Below are positions 10,475-53,583 of a stretch of DNA of 64,000 bases, piece by piece; position 1 is the first letter of the stretch, and each line of letters begins with the position of its first letter. Under the pieces are notes generated by a model. The model was not told the DNA's origin and did no database searches. It saw nothing but the letters and a program-made list of their open reading frames with translations. Made by a program: the position numbers and the translations under genes. The DNA is taken from NCBI RefSeq assembly GCF_001971705.1, contig NZ_CP019327.1, positions 620,001 through 684,000 on the forward strand, in the 5' to 3' direction. Source of the stretch: Natronorubrum daqingense (GTDB lineage Archaea; Halobacteriota; Halobacteria; Halobacteriales; Natrialbaceae).

Positions 10475-12000
10475 TGATGATCGAAGCACTAATCGCGGTC
10501 GCACTGGTCGGCGCACTCCTCACGTTCATCGCGCCGAATCGCGTGGCGGGCAAACTGGCGTTCGCTATCAGCCTGATTCCCGTCGCCCTCAGCCTCTGGA
10601 TGTTCGCGACGTTCGACGGCAGCGGCAACGCGTTGATCGACGGCACGCTCGCCTTCGAATCCCACCTCGAGTGGATCCAACTCGGCGAGTACTCCATCTC
10701 GTGGTTCGTCGGCGTCGACGGCATTAGCCTGCCACTCGTCGTGTTGACCACGATACTCTGTTCGCTCGCGATCATGAGTTCCTGGACGCCGATCGACGAG
10801 CGCGAGTCCCAGTTCTACGGACTCGTGCTCTTCATCGAGGCGAACCTGATCGGCGTCTTCACCGCGCTCGATTTCTTCCTCTGGTTCATCTTCTGGGAGG
10901 CCGTCCTCATCCCGATGTACCTGCTGATCGGCGTCTGGGGCGGCCCGCGCCGGAAGTACGCGGCGATCAAGTTCTTCGTCTACACGAACGTCGCCTCGCT
11001 CGTGATGTTCGGCGCGTTCATCGCGCTCGTCTTCGGCCTCGGCGACGTCACGAGCTTTGCCCTGCCGGAGATCGCGACGGCGATGGTCGAGGGCGGCCCC
11101 GACGGCCTCTTCGGCCTCGAGGGATCGACGCTCGCCGCGGTCGTGTTCATCGCGATGTTCCTCGGTTTCGCGGTGAAGGTGCCGGTCGTGCCGTTCCACA
11201 CGTGGCTGCCGGACGCTCACGTGCAGGCACCGACGCCCGCGTCGGTGTTACTGGCGGGCGTCCTCCTGAAGATGGGGACCTACGCCCTGCTCCGGTTCAA
11301 CTTCACGATGTTCCCCGAGCAGGTCGAGACCTACGCGGTTCCGATCGCCGCAATTGCGGTCATCAGCGTCATCTACGGCGCGATGCTCGCGCTCGCACAG
11401 ACCGACCTGAAACGGATCGTGGCGTACTCCTCGGTGTCGTCGATGGGCTACGTGATCCTCGGTCTGATCGCGTTCACCCACTTCGGCGTCGGCGGCGCGA
11501 CGTTCCAGATGGTCTCACACGGCCTCATCTCGGGGCTGATGTTCATGGCCGTCGGCGTGATCTACAACGCGACCCACACCCGCCTCGTCACCGACATGTC
11601 CGGCGTCGCCGACCGGATGCCCATCGCCGTCGGCATCCTCGTCGCCGGCGCGTTCGGCTACATGGGACTGCCGCTGATGAGCGGGTTCTTCGGCGAGTTC
11701 ACGATCTTCTTCGGGGCCTTTGGCTCCGAGGCGCTCGCGTACTCGCAGGTGTTCACGGCGCTTGCGATGTTCGGCATCGTCATCGTCGCCGGCTACCTGC
11801 TCTTTGCACTCCAGCGCGCCGTCTTCGGCCCCTACGAACTCGAGACCGACTACGACGTGACTCGCGCCCCGCTACACGACGTCGCACCGATGTTCGTGTT
11901 GCTCGGATTGATCATCCTGTTGGGCGTCGCACCGGACCTGATCTTCGAGATGATAACCGATGCCGTCGATCCGATTCTCGAGAACGGAGGTGACAGCTAA
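10474..12000 (+). CDS. nuoM: Complex I proton-pumping subunit NuoM
   Basis: NuoM is the middle antiporter-like pump. The 508-residue protein shows the family glutamate in FIFWEAVLIPMYLLIGVWGG, the VKVPVVPFHTWLPDAHVQAP core with the pump lysine, and LKRIVAYSSVSSMGYVILG. I start it at ATG 10474, which shares a base with the nuoL stop; ATG 10477 is an alternative. It ends sharing one base with the nuoN start. Confidence 0.96.
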   Translation: MMIEALIAVALVGALLTFIAPNRVAGKLAFAISLIPVALSLWMFATFDGSGNALIDGTLAFESHLEWIQLGEYSISWFVGVDGISLPLVVLTTILCSLAIMSSWTPIDERESQFYGLVLFIEANLIGVFTALDFFLWFIFWEAVLIPMYLLIGVWGGPRRKYAAIKFFVYTNVASLVMFGAFIALVFGLGDVTSFALPEIATAMVEGGPDGLFGLEGSTLAAVVFIAMFLGFAVKVPVVPFHTWLPDAHVQAPTPASVLLAGVLLKMGTYALLRFNFTMFPEQVETYAVPIAAIAVISVIYGAMLALAQTDLKRIVAYSSVSSMGYVILGLIAFTHFGVGGATFQMVSHGLISGLMFMAVGVIYNATHTRLVTDMSGVADRMPIAVGILVAGAFGYMGLPLMSGFFGEFTIFFGAFGSEALAYSQVFTALAMFGIVIVAGYLLFALQRAVFGPYELETDYDVTRAPLHDVAPMFVLLGLIILLGVAPDLIFEMITDAVDPILENGGDS

Positions 12001-47367: not shown

Positions 47368-47557
47368 TGGTCTTTCCTTAGGAGGTGTGGGATTTGTATC
47401 ATTGCCTTCCCGTCAGCCCGATTGGAGGTCCACTCGAGGAGCGCGGTCGATAGTCGACGAAATCTGACAAGTAGAGTCGCGAACCGTCAGGGGCCCACAC
47501 TGTCGCGCGATCGAAGACATGACAATCCTTTTCCGCGGCGATAGAGAATCCGAGGGT

Positions 47558-47947
47558 ATGTCCGACGAGGATCAACCAAACGACGCCAGCGACGACGGAG
47601 AGGAGAAGTCCTTCCGCGAGCGAGTCGAAGAGATTCGCGAAAAGCGCGCTGAAGAGGGCGAAGGCGAGGGCGAACCGCCGGAGAGCCCATTCGGCGGCGG
47701 CGGTGGCGGCCCAGGCGGGATGGGCGGTGGCGGCAACCCGTTCGCCCAGATGATGGGCGGCATGATGGGCGGCGGTGGCGGCCCGCCAGGCATGGGCGGC
47801 GGTCCGGGCGGTCCCGGTGGCCCCGGTGGCCGCAGCGAGGAGGTCGGCAACGAAGAACTCGTCCAAGAGGTCCGTCAACTTCGCGACGAAATGCGCGACC
47901 AGACCCGCGCCCTCAAGCGGATCGCTGACGCACTCGAAGACAACTAA
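47558..47947 (+). CDS. Gly/Met-rich protein with charged ends
   Basis: This 129-residue protein has three parts. There is an acidic N-terminal helix (SFRERVEEIREKRAEEGEGE) and a middle made almost only of Gly, Met and Pro (for example NPFAQMMGGMMGGGG). The C-terminal helix, EELVQEVRQLRDEMRDQTRA then LKRIADALEDN, has heptad spacing. It looks like a disordered linker between oligomerising helices. I know no function. ATG 47558 is chosen because the upstream codons are unlike protein; an in-frame ATG at 47519 is possible. Confidence 0.7.
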   Translation: MSDEDQPNDASDDGEEKSFRERVEEIREKRAEEGEGEGEPPESPFGGGGGGPGGMGGGGNPFAQMMGGMMGGGGGPPGMGGGPGGPGGPGGRSEEVGNEELVQEVRQLRDEMRDQTRALKRIADALEDN

Positions 47948-48054: not shown

Positions 48055-48912
48055 CTACGAGTCAGAGTCGCGATTCCGAACGCTCGAGAGTGACGGGAGT
48101 CGACCGTTGGCCCACTCGTAAACCGACCAGCGGCCGACGAGCAGGCGGGAGAGTTCGACGCAGACGTACGCGAGGACGACGCCCGCGACGACGTCGATCG
48201 CCCAGTGAATGCCGAGGTACATCGTCGAGATGACGACCGAGAGGCCCAGAATCGAAGCGACGAGAGCCCACTTCGGGTAGACCGACCGCGTGTGGAACGC
48301 GAGGATCGAGACGGTCGCCGCCAGGGACGTGTGGAGAGAGGGGAAGACGTTCGTGTTTCGGTTGACCTGGCGCGTGAGGTGTTGGTACTGCGGGTACGTG
48401 TCGTAGAGCAACGCGTCGACGAGCTCCGGCATCATGTTCCGCGGCCCGTAGGCGATGATGAGGATGTAGAGTACCGTCCCGAGAACGTAGTTCAGCGTGT
48501 ACGCCGTCAGGAGCTCTCGGAGCGGCCGCGTATTCGAGAGCGCGAAGTAGGCAATGACCGGGAACACGAGCAAGAAGACGTAGCCGTAGATGTAGATGAA
48601 CGAGAAGTACGCCGTCACCGCCGGCGTTTCGAGCGACTGTAGCCAGACGATGAACTGGCCTTCGATGTCGTAAATCGCCCACGTCAGGTTCCAGTCGATC
48701 AGCCACGATATTTCGGGGACGAACTGCCTCGAGAGTCCGTTGAGCGAGAGGACAGCGGCGAGGAGGACGGTCGCCGGGGCGGCCGCCCGGAGGCGGTCTC
48801 GCCACTCGACTTTCGTATCGCGAAGCCGGTATCGGCCCACGAAGAGCGCGATCGAGACGAGCGTCATGAACGTGACGACCAGCGCCAGCTGAATCAGGAC
48901 GTTCGCGAGCAT
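48055..48912 (-). CDS. PAP2/AUR1-like integral membrane phosphatase or phosphotransferase (module 1)
   Basis: This 285-residue protein has about six to seven helices. It carries the PAP2 core NRNTNVFPSLHTSLAATV, with His194, and STMYLGIHWAIDVVAG, with His236 and Asp240. A preceding AYGPRNMM replaces the classic K-x6-RP; GPR with NT-x-x-PSLH is typical of the inositol-phosphotransferase (AUR1-like) branch. The active site should face outside. Enzymes of this class split or transfer lipid-linked phosphate groups. Its start shares one base with the stop of the upstream lipoprotein gene, so the two are translationally coupled. A close paralog is at 50837. Confidence 0.87.
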   Translation of the reverse strand: MLANVLIQLALVVTFMTLVSIALFVGRYRLRDTKVEWRDRLRAAAPATVLLAAVLSLNGLSRQFVPEISWLIDWNLTWAIYDIEGQFIVWLQSLETPAVTAYFSFIYIYGYVFLLVFPVIAYFALSNTRPLRELLTAYTLNYVLGTVLYILIIAYGPRNMMPELVDALLYDTYPQYQHLTRQVNRNTNVFPSLHTSLAATVSILAFHTRSVYPKWALVASILGLSVVISTMYLGIHWAIDVVAGVVLAYVCVELSRLLVGRWSVYEWANGRLPSLSSVRNRDSDS

Positions 48913-50729
48913 CAGTGTCTCACCCGAAGGGTTCCGTCCTCGCCGTATCGGAAGCCGGCGTCTTCGAACGCGGCCCGTGACGCATCGACGTCGACGTCGC
49001 CGTCCGTTCCGAGAAACGGCATAGCCGGATCCTCGCCGTCCCACTCGAGGTCATCAGGTAGCCACTCCTCGTCCGTAAGCGGCGTCGCGATCGGGTCGGC
49101 GTAGCCGTCGAACACCTCCTCGGTCAGCCACTCCTTATCGATCAACCGCGCGACGGCCCGTCTGAACTGCGGGTTGCTAAACGGCGCGTTTCGGGTGTTG
49201 AACCCGAGGTGATAGAACGACCACGACGGCGATTCGAGTAACTGGACGTCGTCGGTCTCTTCGATGTCGTTGACCACGTACGTCTCGAGTGCGGAACTCG
49301 TGACGTCGGCGTCGCCGTCTTCGATCAACTGGATCGCGGACGTACTCCGCGGATCGATCTGTACGCGGAGTTCCTCGACGGTCGGTTCGGGGAGGTCGAC
49401 GTCATCGCGCAGCGTGAAGTGGTCGTCGAATCGATCGAACGTCACGTGTTCTCTGTCGGTGTGATCTGCGTACTGAAACGGCCCGGTGCCGACCGGCGGA
49501 ATGTTGTTCGAGACGACCGCATCGGTCGTCCCCTGTGCGACGCGGACACCGCGGACAGATGCGTGCTCAGCGCGGTCCGCCCAGACGTGCTCGGGAAGGA
49601 TCGGAACCGTGAGCGCGCGTTCGCCGACCGTCTGGTTCGAGTCGGTCGTGAACTCGAGGGTGCGTTCGTCAGTCGCCTCAACGTCGTCGATCGCACTGAC
49701 CACCCCGCGATACCGTGGGGAAGGTGCAGGTGCAGAACCGTCCCCGTTTGCAGTATCTGAGAGGAACTCGTACGTGAACTCGACGTCCTCGGCGGTGAGC
49801 GATTCGCCGTCGTGAAACGTCAAGTCGGTGTGGAGGGAAACGACGAGCGTCGATTCGTCTTCCCACTCCCACTCCTCGGCGAGCCACGGCGTGAACGTCT
49901 GTTCGCCGTCACCGGAGACGGCGTCGATCGCGAGGGAGTCGTAGACGAGGTCCATTATCGTGTCACGGTAGCGGTATTCGACCGTCAACGGGTTGAGGTT
50001 CTGTGACGGACGCGCGTCCGTGTGAACGGTTCGGAGGTGTTCGCTGTGCTCGTCTGCAAGTGGTTCGACTCCGAGATAGCCACTTCGCGTCGCGAGATGA
50101 CCGTCCGTCCAGCCGTCGTATCGACCTGCTCTGGCCAGGCGGTGTTCCGTCGGCGTACAGATCGGGACGAACGGCTGTTCGGCCACGAACCCCTCGAGCA
50201 TCGATTCGACCGCCTCTTCGCGCTCGTCCTCGTCGGCCTCACGTTGCTCCTCGAGTAACTCGTCGAGTAACAGGTTCGTCACGCCGAATGGGTTCTGCCA
50301 ACCGGATTCGTCGGCATACTGTGAGTGGAGCGCTTCGTAGAGAAAGTCCGGGTCGGTACCACCCGGATGTTCACCGACGTAGATGTCGAAATCGTGGTTA
50401 ATCAAAACGGCCCGCAAAAACTCCTCGCTCGAGCGCATCTCGATCGACGACTCGATTCCGGCCGCCTCGAGCGCGTTTGCCACTTCTCGAGCGAGTCGGA
50501 TCGTCTCTCTGTCGCCGTCTGCAGGGAGCGTCGTAATCGTCACGGAAAGCGGATCGATGTCGTCGCGATTGACGATGCTCCGGAATTGACTCAGACAGCC
50601 ACTCGTCGCCACCGTGAGGCCTGCTGCGCCCGCAAGCGTGGCCCGACGGCTCAGCCCACCAGTGGAGGAACCACCGGCGTTATCGTCGTTCATCTCGTCT
50701 CCGACCGGTGTGCCTCCGCGTTTGCTCAT
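48912..50729 (-). CDS. Tat lipoprotein, SBP_5 (oligopeptide-binding) fold in permuted order (module 1)
   Basis: The 605-residue protein has a Tat lipobox signal, LSRRATLAGAAGLTVATSGC (Arg28-Arg29, Cys45). Residues 60-215 match the end of normal SBP_5 proteins: LSVTITTLPADGD, REVANALEAAGIESSIEMRS, HDFDIYVGEHPGGTDPDFL, EEAVESMLEGFVAEQPFVPI and RYDGW. Residues 235-605 match the normal start and middle: RPSQNLNPLTVEYRY, LVYDSLA, PWLAEEWEWEDES, TFHDGESLTAEDVEFTYEFL and FRRAVARLIDKEWLTEEVF, stopping at AFEDAGFRYGEDGTLRV. Partner PAP2 gene overlaps its stop. No permease or ATPase is near. ATG 50693 is an alternative start. Confidence 0.85.
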   Translation of the reverse strand: MSKRGGTPVGDEMNDDNAGGSSTGGLSRRATLAGAAGLTVATSGCLSQFRSIVNRDDIDPLSVTITTLPADGDRETIRLAREVANALEAAGIESSIEMRSSEEFLRAVLINHDFDIYVGEHPGGTDPDFLYEALHSQYADESGWQNPFGVTNLLLDELLEEQREADEDEREEAVESMLEGFVAEQPFVPICTPTEHRLARAGRYDGWTDGHLATRSGYLGVEPLADEHSEHLRTVHTDARPSQNLNPLTVEYRYRDTIMDLVYDSLAIDAVSGDGEQTFTPWLAEEWEWEDESTLVVSLHTDLTFHDGESLTAEDVEFTYEFLSDTANGDGSAPAPSPRYRGVVSAIDDVEATDERTLEFTTDSNQTVGERALTVPILPEHVWADRAEHASVRGVRVAQGTTDAVVSNNIPPVGTGPFQYADHTDREHVTFDRFDDHFTLRDDVDLPEPTVEELRVQIDPRSTSAIQLIEDGDADVTSSALETYVVNDIEETDDVQLLESPSWSFYHLGFNTRNAPFSNPQFRRAVARLIDKEWLTEEVFDGYADPIATPLTDEEWLPDDLEWDGEDPAMPFLGTDGDVDVDASRAAFEDAGFRYGEDGTLRVRH

Positions 50730-50760
50730 TCGGTTCGTTTACGACAGTTGGCTGGCCGTG

Positions 50761-50767
50761 GTATAAC
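50761..50767 (-). promoter_or_regulatory. TATA box of module 1
   Basis: The minus strand reads GTTATAC, placing the transcription start near 50737, about eight bases before ATG 50729. It implies module 1 has its own promoter, separate from module 2 upstream. Confidence 0.5.
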
Positions 50768-50836
50768 AGTATTGCGTTGGGCCCGGTTGGTGTCGGAAGG
50801 ATGAAGTCAGCACCGAGCCAGCGATAACGGACGGAA

Positions 50837-51661
50837 TTACCGGTCGAGGGCCTCTCGAGTACGATCGACGATATCCGAGAGTGTCCACCGCCCGACGAGT
50901 TGATCCGACGCCCAGACACAGAATGCGGCGAGTGCGAGGCCAGCAACGACGTCAATCGCCCAGTGGATCCCCAGGTACATCGTCGAAATGATGACGCTGA
51001 TCGAGAGGATGAGCGCGACGACGAACCAGTAGGGGTACTCAGAGCGCGTGTAGAACGCGAAGATACCGACCGTCGCGGCCAGAGACGTGTGCAGCGACGG
51101 AAACACGTTCGTGTTCCGGTTGACCTCCGTTGTGACGTGTGCATATTCGGGTCCGAAGTCGTACAGGACCACACCCATTTCCTCGGGGTACATGAACTGA
51201 CGGGGCCCGTATGCTCCGACCAGGAGATACACTGACAATCCAATGAGGTAATTGAGCGTGTAAGCTGTCAGCAGTCGCCGAAACATTCGCGTGTTAGAGA
51301 GGACGAAGTAAGCGATAGCGGGGAAGATGAGTATATAGGCGTATCCGTAGACGTACACGAAGGAGAAGTACATCGTCAGCCTCGTCGTTTCGATATCTTG
51401 GAAGACGTAGATGAGGTCTCCTTCCAGCCTTCGAATCACCTGCGTCATCGGGAAAATCCCGTCTTCCTCGCTTTGACGCATCAGTCGGTTTATCAACAAC
51501 GCGATACCCAAGACGACGAGGACCGGCCCGGTGATCTGTAACCGAGATCGCAACTGTGCGAGCGTCGTTGTGAGTGCTTCGCGGCTGATAAAGAGCGCAA
51601 TCGAGATCGCCAGCATAATGCCGACGATCTGTACCATTCCCACCAGAACCTCCTGAAGCAT
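50837..51661 (-). CDS. PAP2/AUR1-like integral membrane phosphatase or phosphotransferase (module 2)
   Basis: The 274-residue paralog of the protein at 48055 shares its helices and the stretch LTAYTLNY. It also shares AYGPR, NRNTNVFPSLHTSLAATV with His191 and STMYLGIHWAIDVVAG with His233 and Asp237. The N-terminal third differs most (RQSEEDGIFPMTQVIRRLEG in place of RQFVPEISWLIDWNLTW), so the two may differ in lipid or acceptor choice. Its ATG shares a base with the stop of the lipoprotein gene, as in module 1. It ends 108 bases before module 1. Confidence 0.87.
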   Translation of the reverse strand: MLQEVLVGMVQIVGIMLAISIALFISREALTTTLAQLRSRLQITGPVLVVLGIALLINRLMRQSEEDGIFPMTQVIRRLEGDLIYVFQDIETTRLTMYFSFVYVYGYAYILIFPAIAYFVLSNTRMFRRLLTAYTLNYLIGLSVYLLVGAYGPRQFMYPEEMGVVLYDFGPEYAHVTTEVNRNTNVFPSLHTSLAATVGIFAFYTRSEYPYWFVVALILSISVIISTMYLGIHWAIDVVAGLALAAFCVWASDQLVGRWTLSDIVDRTREALDR

Positions 51662-53547
51662 TAATTACGCCTCAGAATCTCCTCATCTTCATCGTATCGA
51701 TAGTCGATTGAATCGATCGACTCAAATGCAGAAATCGCACCATTGACGTCCACTTCACCGTCGCTCCCAGCAAATGGTGTTTCCGGATCCACTCCATCCC
51801 ACTCGAACGCCTCTGGAACCCACTCGTCGGTCACTGGAACGGCAATTGGATCGGCGTAGCCGAAGAAGAACTCCTCGGCGATAAATTCCTTGTCGACTAG
51901 TCGGCAGATCGCACTCCGGAATTGGGGGTCGTAAAACGGTGGTCCATCCACACGTCCCGCATTGAATCCGAGGTGGTAAAACGTCCACGAGGACGCTGGC
52001 ATCGTTTCGAGACTATCGTCGTCGGGAACGTCGTCTATCGCGTAGGCTTCGAGCATCGTTCCGGTAAAGTCGGACCCACCACTCGCAATTCGTTCGACAG
52101 ACGATGCACTTCCAGTATCGGCAACGAACGTGAGTTCTTCGACGATCGGCTCGAGGAGGTCTTCCTCGTCCGACCCGATCGAGAAGTGATCGTCGAATCG
52201 CTCGAGCGTGAGGCTATTCTGATCGGATTGATCGGCAAACTGGTAGGGGCCGCTCCCCACCGGTTCGATCGCGCTGCTCGTCACGAGGCCCCACTCACCT
52301 TTCGGTGCCGAGAGGTCGTCACTCGATCCGATTCGCTCGTCGAGTTCGTCCTCGAGCCAGATGTGCTTCGGTAAGATCGGGACGGTAAACGCCCGCTCGC
52401 CGACCATCGTACTGGTGTGGAAGGGAATTCGAAGTTCGTACTCGTTTTCGATCTCGATACCGTCGACGTCGACCGCGCTCACGTGGCCTTGATAGCGGGG
52501 TGCTGGTGACGTGTTGCCCTGTCCGAGCGTCGTGTTCTCGAGGAGTTGGTAGGTAAATTCGACGTCCTCGGCGGTGAGGGGTTCACCCGTCTCGTCCTCC
52601 TCGAGGGTGTGGAACGTGACGTCTTCTCGAAGCGTGACGTGCGCGGTATTCGTTCCATCTTCGTCGTCGATCCACTCCCACGATTCGGCGAGCCAGGGTT
52701 CGACACGGTATTCGACGACGTGGTCGTCGGTGTCGACGCCGTCCTCGCCGTCTTCGTCGTCCTCGACGATGACGGTTCCGAGAGAGTCGTACACCAAATC
52801 GATAATCGTCTCCCGTTCACGGTTTTCTGCCATGAGCGGGTTGATGTTCTGCGTCGGTCGCGAGTCCGTTATGAGCGCCTCTAGCTCGTTGTCGTCGTTA
52901 CTGTCGGTGGGTTCGAGACCGAGATACCCCCGCTGGGTAGCGAAGTGCCCATCGTGCCAGCCGTCGAATCGGTCTCCACGCCCAATTCGAAACTCGTGGG
53001 GTCGACAAATCGGCTCGAACGGTTTTTCACTGACGAATTCCTCGAGCAGATCGGTGAGTATCTCCTGTCGCTCTTGTTCGTCGTCCGCCCGGCGCTGATC
53101 CTCCAGAAGGTCGTCGACGAAGTTCCTTCCAGTCGAATACGCGTACGGGTTTTGCCACCCGGGTTCGTCCGCGTACGTGGAGTGGAGGGCCTCGAAGAGA
53201 TAATCGGGATCGAAGTCGCCAGGGTGCAAGCCTACGAACATATCGTAATCTTGCTCGATGAGGACCATTTCCAGAAACTCCGTTTGGGATCGCATATCGA
53301 TAGTGGCGTCGATGCCGGCTGCTTCGAGATTCCCTTCAATGTGGCGGGCGATCTGAGGGGACTGCCTGTTATCGTCCTGCGAGACCGTGGCGATGGAGAG
53401 CGAAAGCTGATCGTCGGTTGTGCCGGTGACGACGCTTCGGACGTTGTCCATACAGCCGCTCAGCGAGAGCGAGAGCCCGGCCGCACCTGCAGCGAGTACT
53501 GACCGGCGGTCGACGCCGTCAACCGGATCAGTTGTAGTGCGATTCAT
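51661..53547 (-). CDS. Tat lipoprotein, SBP_5 fold in permuted order (module 2)
   Basis: This 628-residue paralog has a Tat lipobox signal VDRRSVLAAGAAGLSLSLSGC (Arg14-Arg15, Cys32) and the same domain order. The segment normally last comes first: LSLSIATVSQDD, GNLEAAGIDATIDMRS, DYDMFVGLHPGDFDPDYLF, EFVSEKPFEPI and RFDGW. The normal N-terminal segment follows: RPTQNINPLMAENRE, LVYDSLG, PWLAESWEWIDDED, LTAEDVEFTYQLL and FRSAICRLVDKEFIAEEFF. It ends at YRYDEDEEILRR. It has longer acidic inserts than module 1. The shared order means the rearrangement predates the duplication. Confidence 0.85.
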   Translation of the reverse strand: MNRTTTDPVDGVDRRSVLAAGAAGLSLSLSGCMDNVRSVVTGTTDDQLSLSIATVSQDDNRQSPQIARHIEGNLEAAGIDATIDMRSQTEFLEMVLIEQDYDMFVGLHPGDFDPDYLFEALHSTYADEPGWQNPYAYSTGRNFVDDLLEDQRRADDEQERQEILTDLLEEFVSEKPFEPICRPHEFRIGRGDRFDGWHDGHFATQRGYLGLEPTDSNDDNELEALITDSRPTQNINPLMAENRERETIIDLVYDSLGTVIVEDDEDGEDGVDTDDHVVEYRVEPWLAESWEWIDDEDGTNTAHVTLREDVTFHTLEEDETGEPLTAEDVEFTYQLLENTTLGQGNTSPAPRYQGHVSAVDVDGIEIENEYELRIPFHTSTMVGERAFTVPILPKHIWLEDELDERIGSSDDLSAPKGEWGLVTSSAIEPVGSGPYQFADQSDQNSLTLERFDDHFSIGSDEEDLLEPIVEELTFVADTGSASSVERIASGGSDFTGTMLEAYAIDDVPDDDSLETMPASSWTFYHLGFNAGRVDGPPFYDPQFRSAICRLVDKEFIAEEFFFGYADPIAVPVTDEWVPEAFEWDGVDPETPFAGSDGEVDVNGAISAFESIDSIDYRYDEDEEILRRN

Positions 53548-53573: not shown

Positions 53574-53583
53574 GATATATAAC
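53574..53583 (-). promoter_or_regulatory. TATA box of module 2
   Basis: The minus strand reads GTTATATATC, centred 27-30 bases before a start of transcription near 53551, four bases before ATG 53547. The core GTTATA is shared with the module 1 promoter. Confidence 0.55.

Follow-up and report, generated by a model that had tools for sequence, protein, structure and literature searches.

Tandem gene pairs for a circularly permuted SBP_5 lipoprotein and an AUR1-like PAP2 enzyme suggest a transporter-less outer-face unit in haloarchaea

Within a 64,000-nucleotide stretch of the genome of the haloarchaeon Natronorubrum daqingense (the window: positions 620,001 to 684,000 of contig NZ_CP019327.1, RefSeq assembly GCF_001971705.1), two tandem gene pairs each encode a lipid-anchored solute-binding protein (SBP) of the SBP_5 family and a polytopic enzyme of the PAP2 family. 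The genes of these modules (SBP-A with PAP2-A, SBP-B with PAP2-B) are paired and co-inherited among haloarchaea and no transporter accompanies them; alignments place the two halves of the SBP in an order opposite to the canonical one, and the enzyme has a PAP2 fold in which the AUR1-type active-site residues appear intact. Each pair may act as one functional unit at the outer surface of the membrane, comprising an AUR1-like enzyme of lipid head groups or lipid phosphates and an obligate partner descended from an SBP, a reading that we hold to be evenly poised between right and wrong.

Open reading frames, sequence and Pfam matches bear out what an initial annotation, made from the sequence alone, had described as two tandem lipoprotein/PAP2 pairs with one-base overlaps: stop and start codons share a base in TGATG (48910-48914, SBP-A/PAP2-A) and TAATG (51659-51663, SBP-B/PAP2-B). 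SBP_bac_5 (PF00496) is found in both binding proteins (1.2e-52 and 3.1e-35; 179.8 and 122.4 bits against a curated cut-off of 32.4), whose N-termini bear both an RR motif and a lipobox (RRATLAGAAGLTVATSGC; RRSVLAAGAAGLSLSLSGC), and PAP2_3 (PF14378) in both enzymes (8.6e-17 and 1.3e-18; 62 and 68 bits against a cut-off of 27). The promoter ascribed to each module is likewise represented, by a GTTATA box ∼30-40 bases 5' of each SBP gene. The claim that the modules lack a transporter also stands: the five window neighbours scanned with Pfam (nitrilase-like, FEN1/XPG, MucB/RseB-like lipoprotein, DUF2270 and TrkA) include no ATP-binding cassette (ABC) permease or ATPase, and the place downstream of the SBP is taken instead by PAP2, here and in most relatives. 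The N. daqingense genome holds a third SBP/PAP2 pair outside the window (SBP at G000:C1:1031526-1033247, PAP2 at 1033489-1034265).

Adjacency was surveyed in 61 genomes (N. daqingense and 60 relatives) by searching with SBP-A and PAP2-A and comparing positions, with each gene counted once where its match was split, at thresholds of at least 190 bits for SBP and at least 160 bits for PAP2, which removed three weaker PAP2 rows. A PAP2 gene lies directly downstream, on the same strand, of 94 of the 99 SBP genes; 93 were paired by script, and the pair in genome G013 once its split match had been joined. Among 87 pairs called from the loci (the gene call missed the pair in G045), 47 overlap, 40 by one base and seven by four, while 13 are separated by at most 50 bases and 27 by more. 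In plasmids, the gene next to the SBP encodes a PAP2 protein in all seven regions opened (seven of 24 matching records), which come from Natronorubrum bangense, Halostagnicola larsenii, Haladaptatus halobius, Haloarcula sp. JP-L23 (twice), Halobaculum halophilum and Haloferax gibbonsii, the last with one module on pHG2; the Haloarcula plasmid enzyme is annotated as ‘inositol phosphorylceramide synthase’.

The two families also come and go together. Of 194 genomes drawn evenly from the class (SBP at E ≤ 1e-50, PAP2 at E ≤ 1e-40), 125 have both genes, none has SBP only, one has PAP2 only (G305) and 68 have neither (Fisher p 3e-52, uncorrected for kinship). Among the genomes listed, the pair is present in some species and missing from others within each of eight genera (g44, g46, g51, g53, g54, g112, g114 and g115), both genes changing in step. 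Distances in the SBP and PAP2 trees agree (cophenetic r 0.933), whereas shuffling partners within the 29 multi-module genomes, the only co-occurrence statistic here that allows for kinship, gave a mean r of 0.118 and a maximum of 0.47 in 999 shuffles; because of this agreement we conclude that modules were duplicated and inherited as units. Chance neighbourhood was rejected on the adjacency, overlap and co-occurrence counts. The linkage of the gene trees, which the initial annotation had proposed as a check, is thus found, and its argument from duplication and pairing to a joint function gains support from these trees and from the same counts.

Alignments indicate that the window SBPs are circularly permuted, the block that matches the canonical C-terminal half coming first. 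Residues 259-551 of SBP-A align to 69-330 of PDB entry 5u4o and residues 70-203 to 370-502, two blocks from which the exchange of the halves follows; against the canonical SBP of locus L170, residues 73-204 align to 383-516 and 244-556 to 64-344. In SBP-B, positions 2-253 of PF00496 fall at residues 282-578, and positions 282-362 near the N-terminus. Across the N. daqingense genome, PF00496 covers four SBPs end to end and four others over its first three quarters only; two of these four carry the remaining quarter ahead of the rest, at their N-terminus.

Rotation of the sequences was scored as the single-domain score against a homemade profile of five canonical SBP_5 sequences. Rotating SBP-A at about residue 212 raised its score from 147 to 177 bits and extended coverage from 32-326 to 32-487 of the 520 profile positions, and gains were also obtained for SBP-B (90 to 126 bits), the SBP of the third pair (97 to 122) and the ABC-linked permuted SBPs of loci L046 (188 to 229), L120 (107 to 151), L069 (166 to 194) and L155 (148 to 197). 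The ABC-linked SBP of L124 gained nothing, and three canonical controls scored best unrotated. With NCBIfam models SBP-A hardly gained on rotation (Opp4A, 90.4 to 89.4 bits; NikA, 56.7 to 58.5 bits, with the profile span growing from 31-294 to 31-471), and the case for permutation rests on the five-sequence profile together with the direct two-block alignments. By Pfam and the rotation profile, module SBPs retain both halves of the SBP fold. Searches of open-licence papers listed no account of the SBP/PAP2 pair or of a natural permutation of SBP_5.

The permuted order is shared with transporter proteins. The search for permutation covered 148 genomes of the same phylum and is represented by the matches listed. 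Of 27 permuted SBPs of lower similarity that were gathered, those with surroundings that were read mostly stand beside DppB/DppC-like permeases and ATPases, recognised by length and motif rather than by profile; within the stretches fetched, L117, L156 and L158 lack a complete transporter. In an alignment of un-permuted sequences, the PAP2-linked SBPs form one group (branch value 100) inside a clade of permuted haloarchaeal SBPs (97), and a separate tree likewise unites all 89 of 89 with support 1.0 against the 27 ABC-type permuted SBPs. This nesting indicates that the PAP2-linked SBPs are a single transporter-less offshoot of permuted transporter SBPs. Of 87 PAP2-linked SBPs, 83 contain a GWQNP block that ABC-type permuted SBPs lack, and one position holds histidine in 76 of 87 of the former against tryptophan in 16 of 27 of the latter; block and shift suggest that the ligand or the partner has changed.

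A permutation that appears to be recent and natural is seen outside the haloarchaea, in family f21. The permuted SBP of L155 (genome G171) matches the canonical SBP of L184 (G092, same family) at 80% identity over residues 199-520/35-356 and at 77% over 19-191/345-517, and that of L156 (G162) has block identities of 78 and 82%. As read from the sequences, the cut lies where it does in haloarchaea, between the ‘AGY’ helix and the next strand. The f21 permuted pair groups with the canonical SBPs of L184 and L185 (100), and an approximately unbiased (AU) test, run on a quick tree with 46 of the 72 rows of a FastTree version, rejected one clade for all permuted SBPs (p 0.001); by these two results the permutation arose at least twice, apparently at the same cut. 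The test did not reject a single origin of the haloarchaeal permuted SBPs including the L046 group (p 0.25). That group, a second haloarchaeal set of permuted ABC-linked SBPs, comprises L046:5463-7127 (G000:C1:255471-257111, in the N. daqingense genome itself), L165 and L166, and may be an independent permutation. For orientation, the f21 genes compared (L155:5324-6886 and L156 with L184:1744-3306 and L185:1694-3304) are ∼77-85% identical per swapped block and stand beside Dpp-type genes.

Conservation across 103 aligned PAP2 sequences centres on R158 (102), H194 (103), T230 (103), H236 (102) and D240 (103), with G156-P157-R158 and F190-P-S-L-H194 near-invariant and the leucine of PSLH present in 102. 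Profile alignment shows FPSLH and STMYLxxHxxxD in the form found in AUR1; we take these His-His-Asp motifs to hold the catalytic residues, and the AUR1-type active site of the module enzyme thus appears intact. The classical phosphatase signature (PSGH, SRx5Hx3D) is departed from, with PSLH for PSGH and threonine for the arginine of SR. Judged by the charge pattern of its loops, the enzyme would expose GPR, FPSLH and HWxxD to the outside, on the side of the lipoprotein. The predicted PAP2 model resembles AUR1 (VIA Z 14.8 and 13.7 over 213 and 216 residues), LpxE (14.2, 152 residues), a sphingomyelin-synthase-related protein (14.1, 204 residues) and YodM/PgpB (13.0 to 10.1; PgpB 10.1-10.8).

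Glycolipid-type enzymes recur beside the module in some relatives. A family-4 glycosyltransferase gene lies directly 5' of it in eight genomes (G005, G010, G013, G018, G023, G031, G033 and Natronosalvus hydrolyticus), and in all of these except G031 a second one lies directly 3'. The first is akin to IagA/BgsA and to processive diacylglycerol glucosyltransferase (diglucosyl-diacylglycerol synthase), the second to glucosaminyl-phosphatidylglycerol (GlcN-PG) and monoglucosyl-diacylglycerol synthases, in each case below NCBIfam cut-offs. The link between glycosyltransferases and module is suggestive.

In the outer-face unit that we propose, the SBP would descend from an already permuted protein that served a peptide-type ABC transporter as its binding component; the transporter would then have been lost. 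The AUR1-like PAP2 enzyme would rearrange phosphate-bearing lipid head groups outside the membrane, by transfer or by removal of lipid phosphate; the lipid-anchored SBP would bind or sense a ligand or a lipid head group, and might present the ligand to PAP2 or gate the enzyme. More tentatively, in a version that we consider possible and rather more apt to be wrong than right, the naturally permuted SBP would have become fixed as a subunit, gated by its ligand, of an AUR1-like head-group transferase, the two forming a complex that remodels the lipids of archaea beyond the membrane; a single hinge site of SBP_5 would have been cut repeatedly, which would have given binding proteins another point of anchorage and other partners.

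A number of observations weigh against this proposal. The AlphaFold2 model of the SBP, built from 12 sequences, is of low confidence (predicted local distance difference test, pLDDT, 46.8), and that of PAP2 (pLDDT 73.9) is low at residues 154-184, around GPR. Foldseek E-values for the PAP2 model all exceed 0.001 and the top Z scores are tied, so the fold does not pick a transferase over a phosphatase; sequence profiles rank PgpB/YodM (2.8e-6 to 4e-6) above AUR1 (5.5e-4). Pairing, called strict in the initial annotation, proves near-strict: five of 99 SBP genes have no PAP2 directly downstream (those in G016 and G019, both arranged SBP-PAP2-SBP with one PAP2 shared, in G050, at a contig end, and in G058 and G060), and 16 of the 110 PAP2 genes are solo, the other 94 being paired. 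No SBP of the module family occurs in any of the 16 loci around the solo genes, 15 of which cluster in the PAP2 tree with negligible branch support (0.07). Of the outcomes that the initial annotation had set against itself (either family usually alone or beside ABC permeases, or unlinked trees), none was seen for the SBP; for PAP2 a solo set exists. The two glycosyltransferases often adjoin each other without the module (e.g. in G017, G039 and G057), and both are absent from the N. daqingense genome at E 1e-50 and 1e-60; for these two reasons the link is not obligate, and their candidacy as obligate partners was rejected. Overall, the joint function and the missing transporter of the initial annotation are supported, but the permutation, the descent of the SBP, the AUR1-type motif and the glycosyltransferase neighbours had escaped it.

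The ranking of PgpB and YodM as best sequence-profile matches, the best NCBIfam match to PgpB (far below cut-off) and the fold shared with LpxE and PgpB would suit a PAP2 that is a lipid-phosphate phosphatase, acting on archaetidate, phosphatidylglycerol phosphate (PGP) or dolichyl diphosphate, with the SBP as a sensor adjusting its activity and no transfer of head groups; we think this somewhat unlikely, since leucine takes the place of the PSGH glycine in 102 of 103 sequences and T230 that of the SR arginine in all 103. Less probable still is the model of the initial annotation, in which the SBP scavenges a phosphorylated extracellular solute whose phosphate PAP2 removes or transfers. SBP_5 proteins do bind solutes, both proteins are expected outside the membrane and the SBP keeps both halves of its fold, but the unit holds no system for uptake of the product, nor do the five scanned neighbours, and the tryptophan-to-histidine shift (16/27 against 76/87) and the GWQNP block (83/87) suggest a changed ligand or partner. 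The one transporter-like neighbour that recurs is an ABC ATPase family; 14 of 75 loci have it, two to five genes away and for the most part on the other strand, and it is not counted as part of the SBP/PAP2 unit. That the SBP still works for an ABC permease whose gene lies at another place, its operon shared with PAP2 incidentally, strikes us as very improbable: the genome does encode canonical SBP_5 proteins beside permeases as well as one permuted SBP with ABC linkage, yet the PAP2-linked SBPs form a clade of their own, and PAP2 accompanies them in 125 of 125 genomes.

Table 1. Coordinates of module features in the window and of neighbouring genes at loci in relatives (locus handle before the colon).
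Feature	Position	Strand	Description
SBP-B	51661..53547	-	628-residue Tat (twin-arginine translocation)/lipobox SBP_5 lipoprotein, apparently permuted order; open reading frame list and Pfam
SBP-B block resembling C-terminal half of canonical SBP_5	52903..53406	-	residues about 48-215
SBP-B block resembling N-terminal half of canonical SBP_5	51664..52875	-	residues about 225-628
PAP2-B	50837..51661	-	274-residue polytopic PAP2_3 (AUR1-like) enzyme
SBP-A	48912..50729	-	605-residue Tat/lipobox SBP_5 lipoprotein, apparently permuted order
SBP-A block resembling C-terminal half of canonical SBP_5	50064..50546	-	residues about 62-222
SBP-A block resembling N-terminal half of canonical SBP_5	48915..50024	-	residues about 236-605
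PAP2-A	48055..48912	-	285-residue polytopic PAP2_3 (AUR1-like) enzyme
PAP2-A GPR motif (Arg158)	48439..48447	-	R in 102/103 aligned PAP2 sequences
PAP2-A FPSLH motif (His194)	48331..48345	-	H in 103/103 aligned PAP2 sequences
GTTATA (TATA-like box) upstream of SBP-A	50762..50767	-	from sequence
GTTATA (TATA-like box) upstream of SBP-B	53578..53583	-	from sequence
Bracketing glycosyltransferases	L037:3961-5136 and 10657-11811; also L041, L067, L072, L077, L085, L094, L096		
LWPYTSRxRS family	L102:7202-8428, L110:4073-5323, L111:7311-8687, L180:1902-3371, L181:1122-2441		upstream of module
LWPYTSRxRS family	L127:3435-4691		divergent from solo PAP2

Other genes recur around the modules. A Gly-rich protein with a EEKSFRERVEEIREKRAEEG stretch is encoded at 47519-47947 of the window, and 32 of 75 module loci have a member of its family downstream, encoded on the other strand; in 14 of these 75, a photolyase-like gene (by eye) follows the module directly and in the same orientation (e.g. 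L078:3207-4610). In several loci outside the Natrialbaceae, a family with an LWPYTSRxRS motif, for which Pfam gave no match above cut-off, stands directly upstream of the module; it was considered as a third partner and rejected, being widespread in the 61 genomes and rarely adjacent (five of 24 compared rows near SBP/PAP2). Four of the seven plasmid regions (L178, L179, L180 and L181) carry an annotated arylsulfotransferase gene, oppositely oriented, no more than ∼3 kb upstream. Around the 16 solo PAP2 genes (L125-L140), several neighbours are malate dehydrogenase-like and large helicase-like genes (by eye), and L139 has a glycosyltransferase pair similar to that described above.

If the proposal is correct, the re-employment of nutrient-binding proteins as subunits of envelope lipid enzymes, an emerging rule, would extend to archaea, and the modules would give genetic access to the chemistry of phospholipid head groups outside the haloarchaeal cytoplasm. 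The permuted SBPs, one of them ∼80% identical to unpermuted kin, would be natural cases in which permutation alters how an SBP is anchored and docks.

Among known systems, the nearest sequence kin of the PAP2-linked SBPs are the permuted SBP_5 proteins of haloarchaeal Dpp/Opp-type ABC operons, which have the same permuted order but stand beside permease and ATPase genes and lack the GWQNP block. PgpB, YodM and LpxE share with the module enzyme the PAP2 fold and the His-His-Asp residues; PgpB and YodM, however, have PSGH and SR where the module has PSLH and ST. AUR1, the inositol phosphorylceramide synthase, resembles the module enzyme in its PAP2_3-type domain, in PSLH and STMYLxxHxxxD, and in a fold that matches over 213-216 residues. 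It works with an accessory subunit, Kei1 (Aur1-Kei1 complex, 9ivc), as the module enzyme would with the SBP. To our knowledge the lipid substrates of AUR1, ceramide and phosphatidylinositol, are not haloarchaeal. Closer in arrangement are transporter-less, lipid-anchored SBP-type proteins of mycobacteria that are tied to membrane enzymes of the envelope: LpqZ and FecB are reported to co-precipitate with AftA and AftB, respectively (PMC12802301), LpqW to steer the flux of PIM4, a phosphatidylinositol mannoside, against PimE (PMC3229680), and the LpqW structure (2GRV) to be the nearest PDB relative of an SBP (PMC7312458). Their partners are glycosyltransferases, unlike the PAP2 enzymes of the modules, and the passages on them describe neither gene-by-gene co-duplication nor permutation. 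The module SBP is, as they are, a transporter-less SBP lipoprotein genetically tied to a polytopic enzyme, and on the best reading by analogy it would work as LpqW, LpqZ and FecB do, as the partner of a polytopic envelope enzyme.

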